A DNA stretch of 64,000 bases, taken from the NCBI GenBank assembly GCA_030057915.1, contig JASGUC010000042.1:1-64000 (forward strand). The letters are read 5' to 3'. A program made the position numbers and the translations under genes. The notes below the pieces were generated by a model that worked only from the letters and a program-made list of their open reading frames with translations, was not told the origin of the DNA and ran no database searches. This DNA is from Pseudomonadota bacterium. Its GTDB lineage: Bacteria > Desulfobacterota > Syntrophia > Syntrophales > UBA8958. Positions 2,726 through 43,811 of this stretch are shown here, in pieces; the stretch's first letter is position 1, and every line of letters begins with the position of its first letter.

Positions 2726-4411
2726 CTATCCGCCGCTGCCGGCGATCTTGGCCCAGGAGTCCCGGAGGGGGACGATGCGGTTCAGGACCGGTTTTCCCGG
2801 TTGCGAATCCCGGGCATCCACGCAGAAATATCCCAGACGTTCGAACTGATAACGCGTCCCCGGCGCCGCATCCCGGAGGCCCGCCTCCAATTGGCAGCCC
2901 GTGAGGGTCACCAGGGAGTCGGGATTCAGATCCCGGGTGAAATCGTCGTCCCGCGGTTCCGGGACCCGGAAGAGGCGGTCGTAGAGCCGCGCCTCCGCCG
3001 GCACGGCCCGCGCCGCCGCCACCCAGTGGATGACCCCGGGGACCTTCCGGCCGTCCGTCGGGGGGCCGCTTCGGGTCGCCGGGTCGTAAGTGCAGTGGAT
3101 CTCTTCTATGGCCCCGGTCCGCTCGTTTTTCACCATCCGTTCGAAGCGGATCACATAGGCGTTGCGGAGGCGAACCTCCCGGCCGGGACCGAGGCGGTGG
3201 TACTTCTTCGGCGGATCCTCCATGAAGTCGTCCGCTTCGATGTAGAGGGTCTTGGCAAAGGGCACGATGCGGGTCCCCAGCTCCGGTTTTTGGGGATGGT
3301 TGGGGGCGGTGAGTTCTTCGACCTTGTCGTCCGGGTAGTTGTCGATGACCACCCGGAGGGGGCGCAGGACTGCCATGGCGCGCGGCGCCCGTTCGTTGAG
3401 GTCATCCCGGACGCAATGCTCCAGCAGGGCCATGTCCACGAGATTTTCGTTCTTGGCCACGCCGATGGCGGCGGCGAAGTTCCTGATCGCCTCCGGCGTG
3501 TAACCCCGGCGCCGCATGCCCGCCACCGTGGGCATCCGGGGGTCGTCCCATCCGGATACACATCCCTTCTCCACCAGTTCGATGAGGCGGCGCTTGCTCA
3601 GGACGGTGTAACTCACGTTGAGCCGGGCGAACTCGATCTGCCGGGGACGGCGTCCCGGTATCAGTTGCGCCACGAACCAGTCATACAGCGGCCGGTTGTT
3701 CTCGAATTCCAGGGTGCAGATGGAATAGGTGATCCCCTCCAGGGCGTCGGAGAGGCAGTGGGCGAAATCGTACATGGGGTAGATCACCCAATCGACCCCG
3801 GTCCGGTAGTGGGGTTCCCGCTTGATGCGGTACATGATGGGGTCCCGCATGACGACATTGGGGGCGGCCATGTCGATCTTGGCCCGAAGGACATGCTCCC
3901 CGTCGGCGAATTCCCCGGCCCGCATCCGGGCGAAGAGGTCCTTGTTCTCCGCCGCCGTGCGGTTGCGGTAGGGGCTTTCCCGGCCCGGTTCGGTGAAACT
4001 GCCCCGGCACTCCCGAATCTCGTCGGCGCTCATGCTGTCCACGTAGGCCTTGCCGGCTTCGATCAGCTCCACGGCGAACTGGTAGAGCCGTTCAAAGTAA
4101 TCGGAGGCGTAATAGAGCCGGTCCTGCCAGTCGAAGCCCAGCCAGTGGATGTCGTCGATGATGGACTGGACGAACTCCAGGGATTCTCCGGCGGGATCGG
4201 TGTCGTCCATGCGGAGATTGCAGGTGCCGCCGTACTGGGCGGCGATCCCGAAGTTCAGGCATACGGCCTTGGCGTGGCCGATATGGATGTACCCGTTGGG
4301 CTCGGGAGGGAAGCGAACGGCGACGACGCCGTCGTTTTTGCCGGTTCTGAGGTCGTCCTCGATGATGTCGCGGATGAAATCGCTGGCGGCCGGGTTCGTT
4401 CCTTGGCTCAT
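2726..4411 (-). CDS. glnS: glutaminyl-tRNA synthetase
   Basis: The 561-residue product attaches glutamine to tRNA-Gln. It has the class I signature [11 protein letters not shown] (residues 36-46), the DDTDP segment, and a KMSKS-type loop VLSKRR near residue 270, followed by the anticodon-binding beta-barrel domains ending near [10 protein letters not shown]. The length matches bacterial GlnRS. The gene ends 12 bases from the convergent DUF47 gene. Many Desulfobacterota also make Gln-tRNA by transamidation (GatCAB); this gene shows that the organism has the direct route, at least for the CUG tRNA encoded nearby. Confidence 0.96.
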
Positions 4412-33102: not shown

Positions 33103-33670
33103 AGCGATTGCGGTCCTCATTATGGCCGTTTTCATTTTTTCCGCCGGATCTGCGGGTGCCCGGACGGGAGACGCCGTCGCGTCCCCTCCCCGAGGCGTCG
33201 CCGCGTCCACTCCACCGGGCGCCGCCACCCCCCCCGATGCCAGGCCGCCCGTCGCGGCGGAGTCATCCCTGATCTTTCGCTACGACCCGAAGGGGAAACC
33301 CGATCCCTTCAAGCCTTTCCTGGAGGCGGAACTGGCCTTGAGAAAATTGAAGGAGCTGGAGCGACAGCGTCTCCAGAGGAGCCTTCCCCTGTCCCCCTTG
33401 CAGCGGGCGCCCCTGGACCAGTTCCGGCTGGTGGGCGTCGGGGGCGCGCCGAAGGGCCGAACCGCCCTGGTCCAGGATCAGGCCGGAAAGTATTATACCC
33501 TGAACAAGGGCGTGCCCATCGGGACAAATAACGGTCGGGTGACGGAGATTCTGGCGGACCGGGTGATAATCGAGGAACCCGTGGCCGGCGACGTCGGCAA
33601 GAAGGGAAAGAGGGGAGTAAAGCGGATCGAAATGAAGCTTGGCAGGGTCAAGGATGAGGGGAAACCATGA
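33086..33670 (+). CDS. pilP: type IV pilus lipoprotein-like protein PilP
   Basis: A 194-residue PilP family protein with a hydrophobic signal segment (about 8-24), a disordered Pro/Ala linker (26-58) and the C-terminal homology-region beta domain (LDQFRLVGVGG...YYTLNKGVPIGTNNGRVTEI). No lipobox cysteine is visible after the signal, unlike classical PilP, so it may be a soluble periplasmic or membrane-anchored form. It links PilNO to the PilQ secretin. Confidence 0.9.
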   Translation: MTRKGEAIAVLIMAVFIFSAGSAGARTGDAVASPPRGVAASTPPGAATPPDARPPVAAESSLIFRYDPKGKPDPFKPFLEAELALRKLKELERQRLQRSLPLSPLQRAPLDQFRLVGVGGAPKGRTALVQDQAGKYYTLNKGVPIGTNNGRVTEILADRVIIEEPVAGDVGKKGKRGVKRIEMKLGRVKDEGKP

Positions 33671-35337
33671 AAGAGTATAAATTGTTGGCGGGTTTTGCCC
33701 TTTTGTGTCTGTTGTGGGCGTTGACGACGGCGGGAAGCGCCGGGGGCCAGGGGACGGAAGGCGGCGCCCCGGGGGTAGAGACTGGTTATCTGGAGGAGAT
33801 ACGCTTCGAACGCCTGCCGGGGAAAGAACGGGTGAGCATAATCGCCACGCGCCGGACCGGGGTGGAGATCGAGGATGTGGCCGGCAGGGACGTGGTGGTG
33901 CACATGGAGGATACCCATGTCCCGACGGATTTAAGAAAATTCTGGGGTGAGAAGCATTTGCACAACGTGATCCATGCCGTACCGGAACAGGGGTGGCGCA
34001 AGGGCCGGCCGGCGGCCCGGATCGTCATCGCCCTACGGGAGGCGGTCCCCCACGGCGTCCGGCAGGAGGGCAACGCCGTAATCATCGATTTCAATGTGGC
34101 GGCCCTGCCCGCCGCCGCGCAAGGACCGACGAGCCCGGCGGCGGCCCCCTCCTCCGGGGGCGGCGGGGAGGCCGCAACGGCGGCTTCGGGGAGCGCGACC
34201 GTGGACATCCCGAAGATGTCCGTGGATTTTCAGGAAGCGGATATTCGCGGCGTCTTCCGTCTCCTGGCAGAACAGGGGAAGGTCAACCTTGTCGTCAGTC
34301 CCGAAGTGAAGGGGAACGTGACGGTGCGGATGGACGACGTCTCCTGGGAACAGATCCTCGCCACGATCCTCGAAATCAACGGGCTGCGCCAGAAGCGGAG
34401 TGGGAATGTCATCAGCGTCATGACCGCCGAGCGGGAGAAAAAGGACGAGGAAGACCGCATCGCCACGATCCAGAAACGCCAGAAGCTTGAGGAAGAGGCC
34501 AAGAAGGCGGCTATCAGCAAGAACCTGGAGATGGGCCGATTGAAACAGTTGATGATCGAGGCCAAGATCCTGGAGGTCACCGAGGGGTTCATCCGCAATC
34601 TTGGCGTCCAATGGGGTGCCGGGGTTCAGTTGGGTTTGTCCGGCAACGATTATTCCATGGGTCTTTTGGGCGGCACGGCGTCGCTTGCCACCCCCATCAC
34701 GAAGCTCAACTCCGGCGTTTCCCTGACCCGCGACGCCTTGGCCATGAGCCTGGGGACGACCCTGGCGCCCACCCTGGGGATCATCCTCGGAGGCTCCAAC
34801 GCCGTCCTGGAGGCCCGCATCCACGCCATGGAGACCAATTCCTCCGGCCGGGTCCTCTCAGCTCCCCGGGTCCTCACCCAGGATTCCCAGAAGGCGGTCA
34901 TCGAACAGGGTGAGGAAATCCCCATCGTTACCCCCGCCTCGGCCAACAATCCCGCCTCAACCACCTACAAACCGGCCACCCTCAAGTTGGAGGTTACCCC
35001 CGAGATCAAGGATGACAACCACATCCTCATGACCATCAAGGCCAAGAACGACCGGCCCAACAAGGCGGAAAAGGACGCCGCCACGGGGAACATGCCCGTT
35101 TATACCAGCAGCGTCGATTCCAAGGTGGTGGTCATGGACGGCGATACGATCGTAATCGGCGGCATCCTGAAGACGGAGGACACCAAGAACGTCGGCGGCG
35201 TTCCCTGGCTCTCCCAGATCCCCTTCCTGGGCTGGCTCTTCAAGTACGAGTATGTGGAAAAGACGAAACGGGAACTCCTCATCTTTCTCACCCCGCGCAT
35301 CGTCAAGCCCAGCGAGGCGAGCTTCACGAGGATGTAG
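33667..35337 (+). CDS. pilQ: type IV pilus secretin PilQ
   Basis: A 556-residue outer-membrane secretin. It has a signal peptide (1-26), one AMIN-like domain (about 36-140), an STN/N0 domain (VDFQEADIRGVFRLLAEQGK, near 185) and the secretin domain with the SAPRVLTQDSQKAVIEQG signature and a C-terminal FLTPRIV. It is shorter than pseudomonad PilQ, having fewer N-terminal repeats. It starts inside the end of pilP (ATGA-type overlap). Confidence 0.95.
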   Translation: MKEYKLLAGFALLCLLWALTTAGSAGGQGTEGGAPGVETGYLEEIRFERLPGKERVSIIATRRTGVEIEDVAGRDVVVHMEDTHVPTDLRKFWGEKHLHNVIHAVPEQGWRKGRPAARIVIALREAVPHGVRQEGNAVIIDFNVAALPAAAQGPTSPAAAPSSGGGGEAATAASGSATVDIPKMSVDFQEADIRGVFRLLAEQGKVNLVVSPEVKGNVTVRMDDVSWEQILATILEINGLRQKRSGNVISVMTAEREKKDEEDRIATIQKRQKLEEEAKKAAISKNLEMGRLKQLMIEAKILEVTEGFIRNLGVQWGAGVQLGLSGNDYSMGLLGGTASLATPITKLNSGVSLTRDALAMSLGTTLAPTLGIILGGSNAVLEARIHAMETNSSGRVLSAPRVLTQDSQKAVIEQGEEIPIVTPASANNPASTTYKPATLKLEVTPEIKDDNHILMTIKAKNDRPNKAEKDAATGNMPVYTSSVDSKVVVMDGDTIVIGGILKTEDTKNVGGVPWLSQIPFLGWLFKYEYVEKTKRELLIFLTPRIVKPSEASFTRM

Positions 35338-35703: not shown

Positions 35704-36192
35704 GTGAACAGGGAAAGCGGGTTTTCGCTGGTCGAGCTGATCATCGTCATCGGCATCATCGGCATTATGTCCGCCATAGGGGTCTATAGCTGGCAGCGTT
35801 ACGTCGCGAACGCCAATCTGCGCACGGCGGCCAGGGAACTGGTGGCGGATTTCAACTTCATGAAGGCCAACGCCTCCGCAAAACCTGACCTGACTTGGTC
35901 CATCTCCTTCAACCGGGACGTAAACCCCAGCACCTACACCCTCGGGGCGCAAGACGCCAACGGTAACAACGCCAGCGGCTTCCCCCAGACCAAGACGCCC
36001 GCCGCCGCGGGGGCCGCCGTTGACCTCACCTCCCTGCCCGGCGGCGGTGCAACCTACACCCTGACCTTTCTGGCTCGGGGGACCCTGAGCCCGACGGTAG
36101 GCACGATAACCATGCAGAACAATCGTGGGTCCACAGCCAGTATCACCTACAATATAACAGGTAAGACCTATGTCACGTTCAATATGCAATGA
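35704..36192 (+). CDS. minor pilin, FimT/GspH-like
   Basis: A 162-residue prepilin with a short leader MNRESG and the prepilin peptidase site G-FSLVE, followed by the pilin N-terminal helix (SLVELIIVIGIIGIMSAIGVY). The C-terminal part has the GspH/FimT-like beta pattern. It starts with GTG, preceded by GAGGGGAAG. It heads a five-gene set of minor pilins with PilY1 that would prime pilus assembly. It overlaps the next gene by 23 bases. Confidence 0.9.
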   Translation: MNRESGFSLVELIIVIGIIGIMSAIGVYSWQRYVANANLRTAARELVADFNFMKANASAKPDLTWSISFNRDVNPSTYTLGAQDANGNNASGFPQTKTPAAAGAAVDLTSLPGGGATYTLTFLARGTLSPTVGTITMQNNRGSTASITYNITGKTYVTFNMQ

Positions 36193-36616
36193 CCGGGGGG
36201 CCTCGCTCCTGGAGGTTGTCATCGCCATATTCTTGACTGCCGTCGGGATAATGGCTATAATCTCCCTGCAGCCGTCGGCATGGCGGACGACGGCCCGGGC
36301 GGACTACCTGGGACGCGCCGCGGGGATCCTACACAAGACGATGCAAGAGGCCGAGGCGCGGATAATGAATCCCTGTAATACCGTGACTTTAGGGCAGACC
36401 ACGACGACGGTTACGGTAAGCAATCAGGCCGGCGTTGCCGGGGACGCCTCCTACACCGTGGCCACGACCATCGCCCAGGATGGGATGAACGCAAGGGCCT
36501 TTGTTGTGACCGTCACGGTGACATGGCCGCCCCTGAACAATACGGGCATTACGGAAAGCATGACCGTGACCCGACAGGAGACCCACAGATATCCAACGGG
36601 GTGCGCGGACGCATGA
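36170..36616 (+). CDS. minor pilin, PilV-like
   Basis: A 148-residue prepilin with cleavage site G-ASLLE (RGASLLEVVIAIFLTAVGIMAI). The Ala at the first mature position replaces the more usual Phe, a change seen in PilV-type minor pilins. Two cysteines (PCNTV and TGCADA) may form a disulfide. It overlaps the following PilW gene by an ATGA. Confidence 0.85.
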   Translation: MSRSICNDRGASLLEVVIAIFLTAVGIMAIISLQPSAWRTTARADYLGRAAGILHKTMQEAEARIMNPCNTVTLGQTTTTVTVSNQAGVAGDASYTVATTIAQDGMNARAFVVTVTVTWPPLNNTGITESMTVTRQETHRYPTGCADA

Positions 36617-37329
36617 AGAACGTAAAGGGCTTTTCCCTGGCCGAGGTAATGGTCGCCATGGCTATCGGGATGCTGATGCTGATGGTGGTCTATACGGCGG
36701 TAAACATGGGGCAGAAGTCATCGGCGGGGATCGAGGGCAAGGTGGCGGCCCAGCAGGATGCCCGGGCGGCCCTGGACCTCATGGCGATGGAGTTGCGCAT
36801 GGCGTCCTACAACCCCACCCTTGCCCCTTCCATCTGGGTCAATCCGACTTCGTGCAGCGGGGCCTCCGCCAGCTCCACCTATCGGGGGATCACGGCCGCG
36901 ACGGCCAGCTCCATCTCCGTGGAAATGGACCTCAACGGAAACGGTGTCATCGGCGATGCGAGCAATGAGATCATCACCTACGCTTACGACCCCGCCAACG
37001 GCTATATCACCAGAAGCACCAATTGCGGCGGGGCGCAGCCCTTTCTGGGGGACAAGGCGGCCAACGAGGACAAGAGGACCGTCCTTGTGGTCAACGATGA
37101 CGCCGGGGCTCCCGTTTTCCGTTACTATGACGGGGCCTTCTCCGGTGCCGGCGTCGGCACGGAGATACCCGCCGCCAGCCTCCCGGGGAGGATACCGGAC
37201 ATCCGGCGGATAGAGATCACCCTCGTCGTCGATACGCACGACCAGGATCCCCACACCGGCAGCCGGAGACGGCTCGTTTACTCTACAAGCGTCATTCCGA
37301 GGAATCATGCGGTCACCTATACTAACTGA
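36613..37329 (+). CDS. minor pilin, PilW-like
   Basis: A 238-residue prepilin with site G-FSLAE (MKNVKGFSLAEVMVAMAIGMLML) and the long PilW-type C-terminal domain. It has two cysteines (TSCSG and TNCGG) and an Asp/Asn-rich DLNGNGVIGDASNE segment that could bind calcium. ATG 36613 is chosen because it starts the canonical prepilin leader. Confidence 0.87.
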   Translation: MKNVKGFSLAEVMVAMAIGMLMLMVVYTAVNMGQKSSAGIEGKVAAQQDARAALDLMAMELRMASYNPTLAPSIWVNPTSCSGASASSTYRGITAATASSISVEMDLNGNGVIGDASNEIITYAYDPANGYITRSTNCGGAQPFLGDKAANEDKRTVLVVNDDAGAPVFRYYDGAFSGAGVGTEIPAASLPGRIPDIRRIEITLVVDTHDQDPHTGSRRRLVYSTSVIPRNHAVTYTN

Positions 37330-37336
37330 GGGAAAA

Positions 37337-37852
37337 ATGGCGGCCAGGAAAGGGAGGCCCTTAGGAAACCAAGCGGGCTTTGCCCTGGTGGCGGCGATCA
37401 TCGCCAGTCTGATTCTCCTTGCCATCGGCATGTTGGTCATAAATCTGTCCACGAAGGACCTGGTCTCCAGTTCCGTAAGCGTGGGCAACAACAAGGCCCT
37501 GGCGGCCGTGGAGAGCGGGGCCCACCGGCTGACGCAGGACTTCGACCCCGATCCCGACACCTGGACTGCCGGTAACAATTACAGCACGAACTGCTCGGCC
37601 GCCGCGCCCGCGTATATCTGGCGGACCATTGCCGGCGGGGTGGACGGAAACACCCAGTTTGCCGTATGTGCTCCGACGAGGAGTAACCTCGCCCCCGTGC
37701 CCATCCCCGGATATGCCCTGGGGTCCGGCGGTTGGGGAATGGTCCGTTACGACACCAGGATCGTGGGGAAAAACGATTCCTACGGCTCCCAGGTCAGCGT
37801 GGATCTGGGCATCGGTTACGGTCCCGTGCCGATCGGGACCTCATCGAGATAG
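37337..37852 (+). CDS. minor pilin, PilX-like
   Basis: A 171-residue prepilin-like protein. After a basic leader (MAARKGRPLGNQAG) comes FALVAAIIASLILLAIGMLVI; the Glu at position +5 is replaced by Ala, as is common in PilX proteins, which cap the minor-pilin complex. ATG 37337 follows GAGGG; an earlier in-frame ATG at 37307 lies inside pilW. Confidence 0.83.
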   Translation: MAARKGRPLGNQAGFALVAAIIASLILLAIGMLVINLSTKDLVSSSVSVGNNKALAAVESGAHRLTQDFDPDPDTWTAGNNYSTNCSAAAPAYIWRTIAGGVDGNTQFAVCAPTRSNLAPVPIPGYALGSGGWGMVRYDTRIVGKNDSYGSQVSVDLGIGYGPVPIGTSSR

Positions 37853-37864
37853 GAGGGAGACGCT

Positions 37865-40800
37865 ATGTTCAGAAGAGTCATCATGGTGGTGGGACTATTG
37901 ACGTTCCTGTCCCTGGGCGCCACCGTCGCCCGGGCCTCGGACGAAGACCTCTTCATGACGGTGACGACCCCCGACGCCCTGATAATCCTCGACCTGTCGG
38001 GGAGTATGGACTGGAACCCTGCCGGCGGGTCCAATATCTACGGCGTTGACACCTGCAAACCCGACACGACGAACTGCTGCAGCTCCGGCTACTGCAGCAG
38101 TTCCAAGAGCGGATGCAGCACTAACTGCAGCCGGATCGCCATCGCCAAGCGGGCCATCTTCAGCCTCCTTGACGACGACAATGATGGCAGCATCACCTCG
38201 GCGGACATCTCGAGCCTCGGGATCCGGCTCGGCTTCATGCGCTACTACAACTGTGGCAGCCACGCGATCAGCAACAAGCCTTACACCGATTCCAGCGCAT
38301 GCATCAAGCTCTCCTGGGGGATCACCCAGGCAGACAACACGACGACCACCCCCTACGCGAACATCTACTGCAACGGCGCCACCTGCGCCTCGACGGTAAG
38401 CTCCTGCGTCAAGACGACTCCGGCCAGGGAATGCGTCGCCGGCTACGGCGTCACCGGCGGCACCCCCATGGCCTACTCCCTCCGGGAGGCCAAGAATTAC
38501 CTCGACGCCCACAAGGCCCTGGACAACTCCGCCACCTGTCGCCAGAAGTCCGTCATCATCATCACCGACGGGGCGGATACCTATGCCTGCGACGGCAACG
38601 GCAGCTCCACCGGCGTCAAACAGCGCCGGGCCCCCGTATTCTATTCCAAGGCCCTGGCCGATGCGGGCTACAAGGTATATGTCGTCGGTTTCGGCGATTC
38701 TCTGAACGCCGACGACAGACGGACCCTCAACTGGATGGCCTACTACGGGGGGACGCGGAATCCAAACGATACCCAGTCGGCGGTGCCCTCCGGCTACGTC
38801 CTGCCCACGACCGCATGCGGCGCCTCCGGCAGCGATCCCAAGGACTTCGACCTCAGCGGCTACGCCTTCATGGCCAGCGACCCCGCCACCCTGGCCGCGG
38901 CCCTCAAGAGCGCCCTTTCCTCCATCGTGGAGGCCAACTACTCCTTTTCCTCCCAGGCCTCTGTCGCTGCCGCCCGAATCCAGGAGGAGAACTATATCTT
39001 CGAGGCCTCCTTCGAACCGAGAAACACTGTCGGCGCCAATAAAGAGCCGTTTTGGATTGGCCATCTGAAGAAATTCGCCCTGAACACCGACGGCACGCTG
39101 ATCACCCCCCATTGCTGGGACGCGGGGGCAAAGCTGCGGGACCAGCCGGCGTCCGAGCGGAACATGTGGACCTACAAGGGGGGAGACTCCCTTACGGCCT
39201 TTACGACGGCCAACATCACCGCCGCCGATCTCGGCGTGACGACGAACACGAGGAGGAACGAGGTGGTCGGTTTCTACCGTGGCGAGTCCGGCTATAACCT
39301 GGAGAACTGGAAGTTGGGGGACATCTTTCACGGCAACCCCGTCATCGTCAAGACCCCGAACCGTTACTTCTACGATCCCCGCCAGTGCGGGGCGACGGCC
39401 TACGCCGAGTTCGCCGCCGACTCCAACCATATCCGGACGGCGAGCAACGGCAAGCAGCTCGTTCTGGTCGGGGCCAACGACGGTCAACTCCACGCCTTCA
39501 CAACGGGGACGAGCGCCGCCTGTGAATCGGGAGGGGAGGAAAAATGGAGCTTTATCCCCCCCAATCTTCTCCAGAAGATGGCCCCCATCGCCCACAATGA
39601 CCATTCCGACCGTACCACCCTGGCCTCCCACGCTTACTTCAACGACGGTCAACTGGAGATAGCGGATGTCTGGCTGCCTTCGACGGCGGCTACCGGGGTT
39701 AGCAAAGACCACACCGAATGGAAGACCATCGCCATCATCGGGCAGGGACAGGGTTCGGGAAACTATCTCTGGAGTTCCTCCTCCACCTGTCATTCCACGA
39801 GCACATCGGGATTCAGCGCCGCATACTCCGCGAGCTATCCCTACTACTGCGGCTATTGGGCCCTCGACGTCACCGTCCCCGTAACCACCAGCGTCAAACC
39901 CGGCTATCTGTGGCATCTGGGCGGGAACAGCGCCATCTCGTCCTCCCGGGGACCCTATCTCGGCGAGCCCTGGGGCAAGATGGTGACGGGACGCGTCAAC
40001 ATCGCCGGCAAGGAACGGTGGGTCGGCTTCATCGGTGGCGGCTACAACGCCAGTTCGTGCCTGTCGGCGAACGGCGTCACGTCTTATGCCTGTGACACCT
40101 CGGACGGATTGAGTCCCGGGAAGGGTTTCTTCGTCGTCGATCTGAAGGACGGGAGCATCATCTGGAGCTTCACCCACGGGGAGACCGCCACGGCCACCAC
40201 CAGCCCGGACATGGACTTTTCCCTCGCCGCGACGCCCCTGGCCCTGGACATGGACAACGACGGGTTCATCGACACGGTCTATGTGGGCGACCTGGGGGGC
40301 AACATGTGGCGTTTCCGCCTCTGCCCCCGGGATCCCGTCTGCCATGCCTGCGGTCTGGATACCTACTACGACGACGCCCCCACCGGATATACGCAGGAAT
40401 GTGGGACCTGCACCACCGCCAACTGGGCGGGGAGTCTCCTGTATCGGACGACCGCCACGGAAAGGGGCGCCGGGCTGTCCCCGGTCAGCAACACCCACAA
40501 GCAGATCTTCAACACGGCGACGGCCACCACGGACATGAGTGGCAACCTGTGGCTATATTTCGGCACCGGGGAAAACAACGATGCGGCCGCCAAACCCGTG
40601 GATACAGACTATACGAAGAACCGGCTCTACGGCATCAAGGATGCGATGTTCAACCGCTACGGGGCTACTTCAGCATGCGCCGCCGACACCGATAAGTGCC
40701 GCGGTCTATCCTGCGTGGGCGGCTACTGTTACGGCAGCCCTATCGAAGGCTGCGGTGTCTATTGCCCGGGCAGTGCCCGCACGACCGCCGATCTCACCAA

Positions 40801-41275
40801 TGTCACCTCCACGAGCACCGTCTATGTGGACTCTTCCAACGTCTCCGGGTGGTACATCAATCTCTCGACCAATGCCCTTTCGAGGTCCGACAACACGACG
40901 ATCACGAACCCCGTCGGAGAAAAGATGATCTCCGATCCGACCGTATTCGGCGGGGTGGTCTATTTTTCCACCTACGTCCCCGCCCAGGGGGAGGACACCG
41001 CCTGCGGCCAGGCGGGGGACGCCTTCCTCTACGCTCTGAAATTTACCAGCGGCAGCGGCGCCGGGCAGGGTGGCGCACGGACGAGCTACATCGGCCACGG
41101 CATCGGATCCGCCCCGGTGATATCCATGCGTCCGGGAGGGACAGGTGTGACGGACATCTATGCCACGGCCAGCGGCGGGGCCGGGACGAGCGCCCTGACC
41201 CAGAAACTGGGGAGCGCCCCTTCCTCGGCCAGTATGACCAATATCATCTACTGGCGGGACCGCCGGGTGCAGTAA
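37865..41275 (+). CDS. pilY1: PilY1-type pilus tip adhesin with vWA domain
   Basis: A 1136-residue secreted protein with a signal peptide cut near Ala24. A vWA domain follows, with the MIDAS motif DLSGS at 43-47. Within it there is an EF-hand-like loop DDDNDGSITSAD. The C-terminal half is the PilY1 seven-bladed propeller with the calcium site DMDNDGFID (compare the Asp-rich loop of Pseudomonas PilY1). Many paired cysteines in the vWA region (NCCSSGYCSS and others) suggest disulfides. It is encoded directly after the minor pilins, with which it should form the tip complex controlling extension, retraction and adhesion. Confidence 0.93.
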   Translation: MFRRVIMVVGLLTFLSLGATVARASDEDLFMTVTTPDALIILDLSGSMDWNPAGGSNIYGVDTCKPDTTNCCSSGYCSSSKSGCSTNCSRIAIAKRAIFSLLDDDNDGSITSADISSLGIRLGFMRYYNCGSHAISNKPYTDSSACIKLSWGITQADNTTTTPYANIYCNGATCASTVSSCVKTTPARECVAGYGVTGGTPMAYSLREAKNYLDAHKALDNSATCRQKSVIIITDGADTYACDGNGSSTGVKQRRAPVFYSKALADAGYKVYVVGFGDSLNADDRRTLNWMAYYGGTRNPNDTQSAVPSGYVLPTTACGASGSDPKDFDLSGYAFMASDPATLAAALKSALSSIVEANYSFSSQASVAAARIQEENYIFEASFEPRNTVGANKEPFWIGHLKKFALNTDGTLITPHCWDAGAKLRDQPASERNMWTYKGGDSLTAFTTANITAADLGVTTNTRRNEVVGFYRGESGYNLENWKLGDIFHGNPVIVKTPNRYFYDPRQCGATAYAEFAADSNHIRTASNGKQLVLVGANDGQLHAFTTGTSAACESGGEEKWSFIPPNLLQKMAPIAHNDHSDRTTLASHAYFNDGQLEIADVWLPSTAATGVSKDHTEWKTIAIIGQGQGSGNYLWSSSSTCHSTSTSGFSAAYSASYPYYCGYWALDVTVPVTTSVKPGYLWHLGGNSAISSSRGPYLGEPWGKMVTGRVNIAGKERWVGFIGGGYNASSCLSANGVTSYACDTSDGLSPGKGFFVVDLKDGSIIWSFTHGETATATTSPDMDFSLAATPLALDMDNDGFIDTVYVGDLGGNMWRFRLCPRDPVCHACGLDTYYDDAPTGYTQECGTCTTANWAGSLLYRTTATERGAGLSPVSNTHKQIFNTATATTDMSGNLWLYFGTGENNDAAAKPVDTDYTKNRLYGIKDAMFNRYGATSACAADTDKCRGLSCVGGYCYGSPIEGCGVYCPGSARTTADLTNVTSTSTVYVDSSNVSGWYINLSTNALSRSDNTTITNPVGEKMISDPTVFGGVVYFSTYVPAQGEDTACGQAGDAFLYALKFTSGSGAGQGGARTSYIGHGIGSAPVISMRPGGTGVTDIYATASGGAGTSALTQKLGSAPSSASMTNIIYWRDRRVQ

Positions 41276-41353
41276 CGACGACAACCTGCGGGAGCGGCGG
41301 GAGGGGAGGCAAGGCAAGGTCAAGCCCGCCCCCCCCTTTCACTGAGGTGAAAT

Positions 41354-42244
41354 TTGGCAAAGGCAAGAGAAAAGACGGCCCCGAAATCTGCATCCAAGCC
41401 CACGGGGAAGACAGCGGGGAAGGCGGTGGGTAAGGCGGCGGGGAAGGCGGCCGGGAAGGCCGTTGCCCGCAAAAGGCCCGGTTGGATGGGGAACATCGTT
41501 GCCCTGGTCGTCTTCATCGCCGCGATAGTCGCGTGGCAGTGGACCCGCGCCCCCGAGTCGCCCGGCCCGCCGGCGGAGGAGGCGGTCACGACGGCCGGGA
41601 CGGCCCAAATGGAGACGCCCCGGGACGGGGGAACGGCGTCCCTCCCCAGAAGGGAGGCAGCAGGACCGGTGATCGAAGCCGTCCGGATAACCCCCGCCAA
41701 TCCGGTGGCGACGGAGGCCATCACCGCCGTCGCCTTTCTTATCGGCGGCGACACTGGGGGGGCGGAATTCACCTATCAGTGGAAGCGCAACGGAGAGATC
41801 ATCCCCGGCGCCACTGCCGACGTCCTGAAGGCGCCGTCCCTCAAACGGGGGGATAGGGTCAGCGTGGAGGTGAGGGCCCGGCGCCACGGCATGACCAGCC
41901 CCCCGGTGGAAAGTCAGGTCGTGATCAGCAACCAGCCGCCCTCGCTGGAGATGAAGATCATGACCCCCCGGGTCCTCCTGGGAGAGCCCTTCGAGATCCA
42001 GTTGACCGCGGGCGGGAAGACGGCTAAGGGGGAGGGGTGTGTCTTCGCCCTCCAGCCCCCCCTCGTGGCGGGCATGACGATCGACGCCCGCACGGGAAGA
42101 ATCGTCTGGACGCCGGCGCGGGCCTACACCGGAAAGGTCCTCTTCGGCGCTGCCGTCACCGACGCGGATGGGAACAGCGCAAGCAGGGTCTTTGAACTGG
42201 ACCTGGGCACGGCGTCGGGCGCGGCCCCGGAACGGCAACCCTGA
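41354..42244 (+). CDS. membrane-anchored Ig/cadherin-like-domain protein with Lys/Ala-rich cytoplasmic tail
   Basis: A 296-residue protein that I do not assign to a named family. It starts at TTG 41354 after TGAGGTGAAA. Residues 1-43 are Lys/Ala/Gly-rich with a four-residue GKAx period, resembling histone H1-like tails. One membrane helix follows (about 45-62). The outside part has two beta-sandwich-like segments: one around residues 100-195 with FTYQWKRNGEIIPGA, and a second (about 196-285) with the MTIDARTGRIVWTP pattern of cadherin/He_PIG-type Ig folds. Position between pilY1 and pilB suggests a pilus accessory role. Confidence 0.7.
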   Translation: MAKAREKTAPKSASKPTGKTAGKAVGKAAGKAAGKAVARKRPGWMGNIVALVVFIAAIVAWQWTRAPESPGPPAEEAVTTAGTAQMETPRDGGTASLPRREAAGPVIEAVRITPANPVATEAITAVAFLIGGDTGGAEFTYQWKRNGEIIPGATADVLKAPSLKRGDRVSVEVRARRHGMTSPPVESQVVISNQPPSLEMKIMTPRVLLGEPFEIQLTAGGKTAKGEGCVFALQPPLVAGMTIDARTGRIVWTPARAYTGKVLFGAAVTDADGNSASRVFELDLGTASGAAPERQP

Positions 42245-42275
42245 TCGGTCTGTCGTTCGGGGGGACGGGGACAAG

Positions 42276-43811
42276 ATGACGCACCAGGCGAAGAAACCAA
42301 GACGCGAGGAAGCAACCCCCCGTATTTTCTTCAGTTCGGGCTATCCAATCCCGGACGACCTCCTCCATAACCTCAGCTACGAATTCCTCCGACGGGAGCT
42401 GTGGACCCCCTTGGGGAAGAAGGACGGGCGTATCCAGGTCGCCGTTGACGAGCCGGAAAACCTCCTGAAAAAGGACATGATCGAGAACCTGCTCCGGACC
42501 AAGGCGGTGGACTACCTGGGCGCCGCCCGGGAAGATATCCTGAAGTTCATCGATCATTTCTATGGCGTCGAGGAGAGAGGACGGGACAGCGGGGCCGTCG
42601 TCTCCGAATCGGACAGCAAGATCGTCCGGCTGGTCAACGAGATGATCAACGAGGCCTGCCAGCGCCGGGCTTCGGACATCCATGTGGAGCCGGACGGGAA
42701 GGACCGTCAGGTTTACATCCGCTTTCGCATCGACGGGGAATGTATCGGCTTCAAGGCCCATCCCTACGATTTTCGTGCGGCCATCGTTTCCCGGATCAAG
42801 ATCATGGCGAATCTGGACATCACCGAACGTCGTCTGCCCCAGGACGGCAAGATCCAGTACAAGCGTCCCAACGGCGAGGAGATCGAACTCCGGGTGGCGA
42901 CCATTCCCACCCACGGTTACGTCGAAGACGTGGTCATGCGCATCCTTACCCGGGGTAAGATCATGACCATGGGCGAACTCCAGATGGAGCCGGATACCAG
43001 GGAGAGGTTCGAAGCCCTCCTGAAGAAGCCCTACGGTCTCATCCTCCTTGTCGGGCCCACCGGTTCGGGAAAGACGACCACGGCCCACGCCGCCCTGCAT
43101 ATCTTAAACCGGCCGGGGGTCAAGATCTGGACCGTGGAAGACCCGGTGGAGATAACCCAGAAGGGGATCCGCCAGGTCCAGGCGCACCACAAGATCGGCC
43201 TGGACTTCAGCAGCGCCATGCGGGCCTTCCTCCGGGCCGATCCGGACATCATCATGGTGGGGGAGATGCGGGACTACGAAACGGCCAAGATGGGCGTCGA
43301 TGCCTCCACGACCGGGCATCTGGTCCTCTCCACCCTGCACACGAACAACGCCCCGGAAACCATCATCCGCCTCCTCGACATGGGCATCGACCCCTTCGCC
43401 TTCGCCGACTCCCTCCTGTGCGTCATGGCGCAGCGCCTGGTGCGGCGCCTCTGCCGTCATTGCCGTGCCCCCTATCGACCCGATCCGGGAGAGTTGGCCG
43501 ATCTGGCCAGGAACTATGGGGAAAGAGAATTCCAGCGCCAGGTCCAAGGCGACGCCGAGGGGCCGACCCTGTACCGGGCCGTGGGATGTCCCGAGTGTCA
43601 CGGCACGGGCTATCGGGGGATGATGGGACTCTACGAGCTGTTGATCGCCACGGACCCGATCAAACAGATGATCATCGGCCGGAAATCCATCGCCGCCGTG
43701 AGAAGGACGGCCATGGGGCAGGGGATGCGGACCCTGATGCAAAGTGGCATCCTGAAGGTCCTCGGGGGCGATACGGATTTCGTCGAGGTCCTGAGCGTCT
43801 GCATGCGTTAA
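42276..43811 (+). CDS. pilB: type IV pilus assembly ATPase, PilB/GspE family
   Basis: A 511-residue hexameric ATPase powering pilus extension. Walker A is GPTGSGKTTT, followed by the Asp box (VKIWTVEDPVE), Walker B (RADPDIIMVGEMRD) and His box (TGHLVLSTLHTNN). A zinc-type cysteine set, CRHC and CPECHGTG, separates PilB/GspE from PilT. The N-terminal region is shorter than in classical PilB (no full-length T2SSE_N). ATG 42276 follows GGGGAC; the longer frame is not supported. Confidence 0.92.
   Translation: MTHQAKKPRREEATPRIFFSSGYPIPDDLLHNLSYEFLRRELWTPLGKKDGRIQVAVDEPENLLKKDMIENLLRTKAVDYLGAAREDILKFIDHFYGVEERGRDSGAVVSESDSKIVRLVNEMINEACQRRASDIHVEPDGKDRQVYIRFRIDGECIGFKAHPYDFRAAIVSRIKIMANLDITERRLPQDGKIQYKRPNGEEIELRVATIPTHGYVEDVVMRILTRGKIMTMGELQMEPDTRERFEALLKKPYGLILLVGPTGSGKTTTAHAALHILNRPGVKIWTVEDPVEITQKGIRQVQAHHKIGLDFSSAMRAFLRADPDIIMVGEMRDYETAKMGVDASTTGHLVLSTLHTNNAPETIIRLLDMGIDPFAFADSLLCVMAQRLVRRLCRHCRAPYRPDPGELADLARNYGEREFQRQVQGDAEGPTLYRAVGCPECHGTGYRGMMGLYELLIATDPIKQMIIGRKSIAAVRRTAMGQGMRTLMQSGILKVLGGDTDFVEVLSVCMR

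Follow-up and report, generated by a model that had tools for sequence, protein, structure and literature searches.

PilY1 is part of the priming complex and is also found at the tip of the pilus; to our knowledge, little is known about how it is stabilised or positioned outside a few model bacteria. Among the closest described systems are those of Myxococcus xanthus. According to the passages available from PMC8833165, TfcP, encoded in cluster_1, stabilises PilY1.1 at low calcium, before its incorporation. A recent survey, in the part available, counts TfcP and MXAN_1370 as additional proteins in PilY1 clusters (PMC13190605); MXAN_1370 (M. xanthus cluster_3, T2SS-T3SS_pil_N) is likewise an extra non-pilin gene in such a cluster, and its function is there said not to be understood. 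The gene studied here, which we call X, lies directly after pilY1 in a pilus locus of the window, the whole stretch of 64,000 nucleotides that was analysed, from a genome of the order Syntrophales. Its features are as follows.

33667-35337, plus strand: PilQ secretin.
35704-37852, plus strand: minor pilin genes (fimU/gspH-like, pilV-, pilW- and pilX-like).
37865-41275, plus strand: pilY1 (T4P_PilY1), directly upstream of X, the conserved neighbour.
41344-41349, plus strand: GAGGTG, the likely ribosome-binding site of X judging from the sequence, preceding the TTG start at 41354.
41354-42244, plus strand: X, encoding a membrane-anchored envelope protein of 296 aa with two Ig/cadherin-like domains.
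41354-41479, plus strand: N-terminal tail of X, residues 1-42, net charge +12, predicted to be disordered and, from its charge, cytoplasmic.
41403-41460, plus strand: 12-bp tandem repeat, 4.8 copies, encoding the GKAx period.
41486-41545, plus strand: single membrane helix of X, residues 45-64 (AlphaFold2 helix; hydropathy maximum at 43-61).
41666-41938, plus strand: first beta-sandwich (Ig-like) domain of X, residues ~105-195 (AlphaFold2, fold comparison).
41939-42199, plus strand: second beta-sandwich domain of X, He_PIG (PF05345), residues 196-282 (Pfam, AlphaFold2).
42276-43811, plus strand: PilB-type assembly ATPase (T2SSE with MshEN), a non-conserved neighbour of X.

The individual minor pilin names are assumed by us from gene order. 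The N_methyl family scored above its cut-off in the ORF at 36523, just below it in that at 36170 and not at all in that at 37307, the ORF at 35704 being outside the scan; PilX_N, at E 0.56, was the sole match of the 37307 ORF. Residues 97-114 of PilY1 (38153-38206) gave a weak EF-hand-like match (E 0.003, below cut-off), a possible calcium site. A scan of 41100-42400 showed no promoter-like site and one terminator-like site, on the minus strand, versus 1.1 expected. Motifs similar to the putative ribosome-binding site, GAGGT ahead of GTG, were present in the related X copies of G001 and G005.

As far as the available passages go, TfcP and X are alike in being accessory genes within a minor-pilin/pilY1 cluster, the TfcP product being periplasmic (PMC8833165, PMC13190605). 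In contrast, the tfcP gene precedes pilY1.1 and its product, a cytochrome c, is soluble and has a type I signal peptide, whereas the X gene follows pilY1 and its product is an Ig-like, membrane-anchored protein lacking CxxCH. X would be comparable to TfcP in role but is not homologous to it. The domain given for MXAN_1370 also differs from those of X.

An AlphaFold2 model of X was built on a 16-row alignment (A2). Tail residues 17-41 (pLDDT below 50) and the linker at 74-99 came out disordered, and the beta-rich regions at ~105-195 and 196-283 reached pLDDT values mostly above 90. He_PIG matched residues 196-282 with 31.4 bits against a Pfam cut-off of 24, and 14 of the 16 members of A2 matched it at E <= 0.01; Cadherin_5 and Big_9 matches in X stayed below their Pfam cut-offs. 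These cadherin-like bacterial Ig domains thus correspond to the second of the two X domains, and their family name carries no function. No NCBIfam family matched X at E <= 0.01, and ZirU_fam was touched by 7 of the 16 A2 members (best E 0.0002). The PilY1 beta-propeller family PF05567 had no match in X at E <= 1, and the whole protein contains a single Cys and no CxxCH haem motif. Foldseek and VIA-align placed the X domains among unrelated, generic Ig/cadherin/C3 rows, with Rib Long 6s5w as the top match for a single domain (Z 9.8, 99 residues, 2.9 A). Sequence conservation among the relatives of X sits in the two folded domains: P114, W143, N146, D167, V171 and P196 are invariant positions in A2, and X itself has the first-domain W143, N146, D167 and V171. 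In the He_PIG loop the other 11 aligned Syntrophales copies have a P-D pair, which is missing from X (residues 219-228, 42008-42037).

A single-sequence search of 41 Syntrophales genomes recovered 13 X copies in 12 of them, the own genome counted, and a profile search found X in 19 of 155 genomes of the order. pilY1 is directly upstream in 11 of the 13 copies, in some of them (G001, G026, G034) only as a contig-end fragment, and all four minor pilin homologues precede it in the same order in G007a, G007b, G038, G003 and G016. On the downstream side, we found pilB in two of the 13 (G000, G038), a convergent pilQ in three (G001, G006, G007a), and a different gene or the contig end in the others; three (G005, G007b, G016) end too near X to show the next gene. 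A preliminary description of this DNA had presented X as an envelope protein of the pilus locus, with one membrane helix and then Ig/cadherin-like segments, encoded between pilY1 and pilB and possibly linked to the PilB ATPase. Its account of the gene position, of the helix and of what are now two confident beta-sandwich domains stands, as does the expectation of orthologues beside pilus genes. Of the proposed pilY1-pilB interval, however, the pilY1 side recurs and the pilB side does not, so that PilB was rejected as conserved context of X and a link to it is not supported.

Five further copies came from the wider set of the order: those of G121 and G132 follow pilY1, that of G139 follows pilB, and those of G136 and G137 have no pilY1 in the fetched stretch. 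All in all, X comes directly after pilY1 in 13 of the 18 copies whose neighbours were examined (G143 and G144 being outside this set), and is apart from it in G019, G012, G136 and G137. Since a PF05567 census of the 41 genomes missed PilY1 in G026 and G034, a PilY1 profile made from this order was used instead. PilY1 was found in 17 of the 19 genomes with X versus 67 of the 136 without it (Fisher P 0.001); the two X genomes in which it was not found, G012 and G144, are both incomplete drafts. X is absent from 67 of the 84 PilY1 genomes of the order. One of the genomes without X, G004, belongs to the same genus, and there pilY1 and a convergent pilQ lie ~430 bp apart (L071, ~3061-3487) with no X-like ORF between, which shows X to be dispensable. 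G007 has two PilY1-X pairs, in one of which PilY1 is interrupted. At that locus (L024, G007:C152), next to an intact X, two adjoining matches in different open frames make up PilY1 (contig positions 15229-16257 and 16259-16801), which would reflect a broken gene or an assembly error. Distances between X proteins and between PilY1 proteins, compared over seven pairs, did not correlate significantly (Mantel r 0.17, a value reached in 1337 of 5000 permutations), in a comparison weakened by the inclusion of the interrupted G007a PilY1.

We then widened the survey to the phylum, presumably Desulfobacterota, where the X profile matched in 88 of 395 genomes, some of the matches being mere He_PIG domains shared with giant proteins. 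From these genomes 60 loci were picked by hand, one per genome, with matches to about E 1e-12 and frames below 500 aa; a few qualifying matches on tiny contigs (G161, G527) were left out. PilY1 was sought at these loci with a local profile of 18 sequences, and weaker He_PIG matches in 14 frames above 1000 aa served as controls. The fetched stretch held a same-strand PilY1 at 41 of the 60 loci versus 0 of the 14 controls, which had less flanking DNA since the gene is long and were scanned for PilY1 in ORFs of at least 150 aa rather than 80. In 27 of the 60 loci PilY1 ends no more than 1200 nt upstream of the X match; among the other same-strand loci are some with minor pilins between PilY1 and X and some with PilY1 downstream. 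Five further loci have PilY1 on the opposite strand, and in the remaining 14, some of them short contigs, PilY1 was not found. L106, L113, L142 and L147 each have two same-strand PilY1 genes in the fetched 12-13 kb, with the gene for a predicted X lipoprotein between them. Named genomes, when scanned, yielded 16 loci. The copies from Nitrospira (L063, L064) and Candidatus Manganitrophaceae (L069) come immediately after a PilY1-like frame; two Myxococcota copies (L065, L066) lie on short contigs, where we recognised no pilus genes.

The way in which X is anchored varies among these relatives. An automatic rule sorted the 60 loci into 38 predicted lipoproteins, 15 transmembrane (TM) forms and 7 unclear cases; by eye, the TM rows include L127, which is lipoprotein-like, L139, which is doubtful, and L145 and L146, which resemble cleaved signal peptides. 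Lipoprotein signals also start the Nitrospira and Manganitrophaceae copies. None of the 38 predicted lipoproteins has an Asp after the lipid-bearing Cys, and in E. coli a Cys not followed by Asp favours the outer membrane. A tree of 65 rows was computed from the folded part, with weak support for 26 of its 62 inner branches. The anchor label has to change at least five times on it, two of the changes being forced by strongly supported branches, and basic-tailed TM forms fall into at least two separate regions. Not included in the tree were 11 of the 60 loci, judged to be wrong-frame, truncated or doubtful (L123, L127, L130, L139, L145, L146, L150, L152, L156, L160 and L164), together with the cut G005 copy and L155, dropped as short; for L153 and L157 the lipoprotein label was assigned by eye.

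The tail of the window protein is the feature that had suggested histone H1-like proteins, whose tails are lysine/alanine-rich with a short period. Residues 1-42 comprise 10 K, 3 R and 1 acidic residue, 64% of them being K, A or G, and contain four GKA triplets; the first 43 residues give 17 lag-4 matches, a number reached by none of 20,000 shuffles. The four-residue period is due to the 12-bp tandem repeat at 41403-41460. The tail thus resembles H1-like tails in composition and short period, and differs from them in being joined to a membrane helix and in the rarity of the repeat: GKAx occurs in one of the 13 Syntrophales copies, that of the window genome, with one GKA triplet also in G019. 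A search of the tail against its own genome, of a type that penalises biased composition, returned only itself at E <= 1 and so offered no second GKAx protein at that threshold. Tails of the 13 copies run from 15 to 69 residues and from +4 to +19, the shortest being those of G016 and G034 (15 residues each, +5 and +4), and no conserved tail sequence was found across them. In L031 (G026) the tail has a different Lys/Ala-rich repeat of ~20 residues, which suggests that repeats arise independently in basic X tails.

We compared tail charges in one pipeline on the fetched DNA, taking ATG starts only, so that the window X lay outside the test, and leaving out L139. A charge of +8 or more was found in 14 of the 15 TM-form X tails (the remaining one has +4) versus 8 of 94 tails of other single-TM ORFs, whose median was +3; the P value of 2e-8 is not a strict probability, the rows being related. 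A strongly basic cytoplasmic tail therefore appears to be common to most inner-membrane-anchored members of the family. Judged from these sequences, positive charge rather than sequence is maintained in the TM forms, which fits a topology signal or an electrostatic contact, and no part of X is less conserved than the GKAx period. Its form in the window genome may be a local expansion of the 12-bp repeat in a region kept basic. The preliminary description was right about the Lys/Ala/Gly-rich start and its period. Loss of the tail in close relatives, which it named as evidence against its reading, is partly seen: they have other basic tails in place of the GKAx repeat. As the core function, H1-like DNA binding is not supported, with GKAx in a single copy and 38 of the 60 selected relatives predicted to be lipoproteins with no cytoplasmic part. 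Since such a lipoprotein has nothing in the cytoplasm, the tail cannot carry the shared function of the family.

The most economical account, and one towards which we lean with modest conviction, is that X faces the periplasm as an accessory of the PilY1/minor-pilin complex, attached through an anchor that can be exchanged, its partner being inferred from gene order only. X would belong to the PilY1/minor-pilin (tip and priming) cluster of the type IV pilus. Its tandem Ig/cadherin-like domains, probably located in the periplasm, would bind PilY1 or the minor-pilin complex before or during loading into the machine and might serve PilY1 stability or presentation. In Syntrophales the N-terminal helix would hold X in the inner membrane and leave the basic tail on the cytoplasmic side, where the tail would fix the topology and may adhere to anionic phospholipids; a lipid anchor would replace the helix in many other relatives. 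This account is suggested because PilY1 lies beside or near X in the order, in the phylum, in Nitrospira and in Manganitrophaceae, and TfcP offers a precedent for an accessory from a PilY1 cluster that stabilises PilY1. It is weakened because PilY1 often occurs without X and some X genes are away from pilY1, because the X/PilY1 distance correlation was not significant, and because tandem Ig domains are generic.

It seems unlikely that X is instead a surface or envelope adhesin that travels with the pilus genes and acts with PilY1 in attachment, not in pilus assembly. The cadherin/Ig-like fold would suit an adhesin, and so would an outer-membrane location of the lipoproteins, as the E. coli rule would have it. 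According to the passages available from PMC10553843, syntrophic partners express PilY1 as well as an adhesin that has an Ig-like domain; linkage of the two genes is not stated there. However, the Syntrophales X would be anchored in the inner membrane with ~230 residues outside, probably too short to pass the outer membrane.

We give rather less credence to the idea that the basic tail is itself functional, as an electrostatic tether that joins a periplasmic PilY1 partner to an acidic cytoplasmic surface such as anionic lipids at the cell poles, nucleoid DNA or the PilM/PilB side of the machine. The excess of charge over other single-TM ORFs from the same DNA and the recurrence of basic-tailed TM forms in separate tree regions are what such a tether would predict, but the predicted lipoprotein forms do without any tail, the tail sequence is not conserved, the G016 and G034 tails are very short, PilB rarely adjoins X, and high charge may merely enforce an N-in topology. 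More doubtful again is a broader version, in which a widespread family of PilY1 partners exchanged its anchor several times and its inner-membrane form gained a polycationic disordered tail that couples the priming complex to an acidic cytoplasmic surface (lipid poles, DNA or motor). Least probable is that X is a passenger, a generic He_PIG protein kept beside pilY1 by inherited gene order and with no pilus role: its absence from G004 and most PilY1 genomes of the order and its separation from pilY1 in several genomes would agree with this, but the association with PilY1 holds for both anchor forms, extends over many families of the phylum and to Nitrospira and Manganitrophaceae, and was seen in none of the 14 controls.

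The PilY1 accessory reading would add to a known kind of protein, accessories of PilY1 clusters having been described already; what is new here would be a different fold and an exchangeable anchor. Among the matches listed from the open-licence literature, we found no description of a family of Ig proteins linked to PilY1. That anchors have been exchanged in nature suggests that the Ig pair is essential and a tail of the window type is not, and it is a warning that a basic tail expanded by repeats need not mean DNA binding. As a neighbour of pilY1 in Nitrospira and in many families of the phylum, X offers a direct candidate, open to testing, for a factor that stabilises or positions PilY1.
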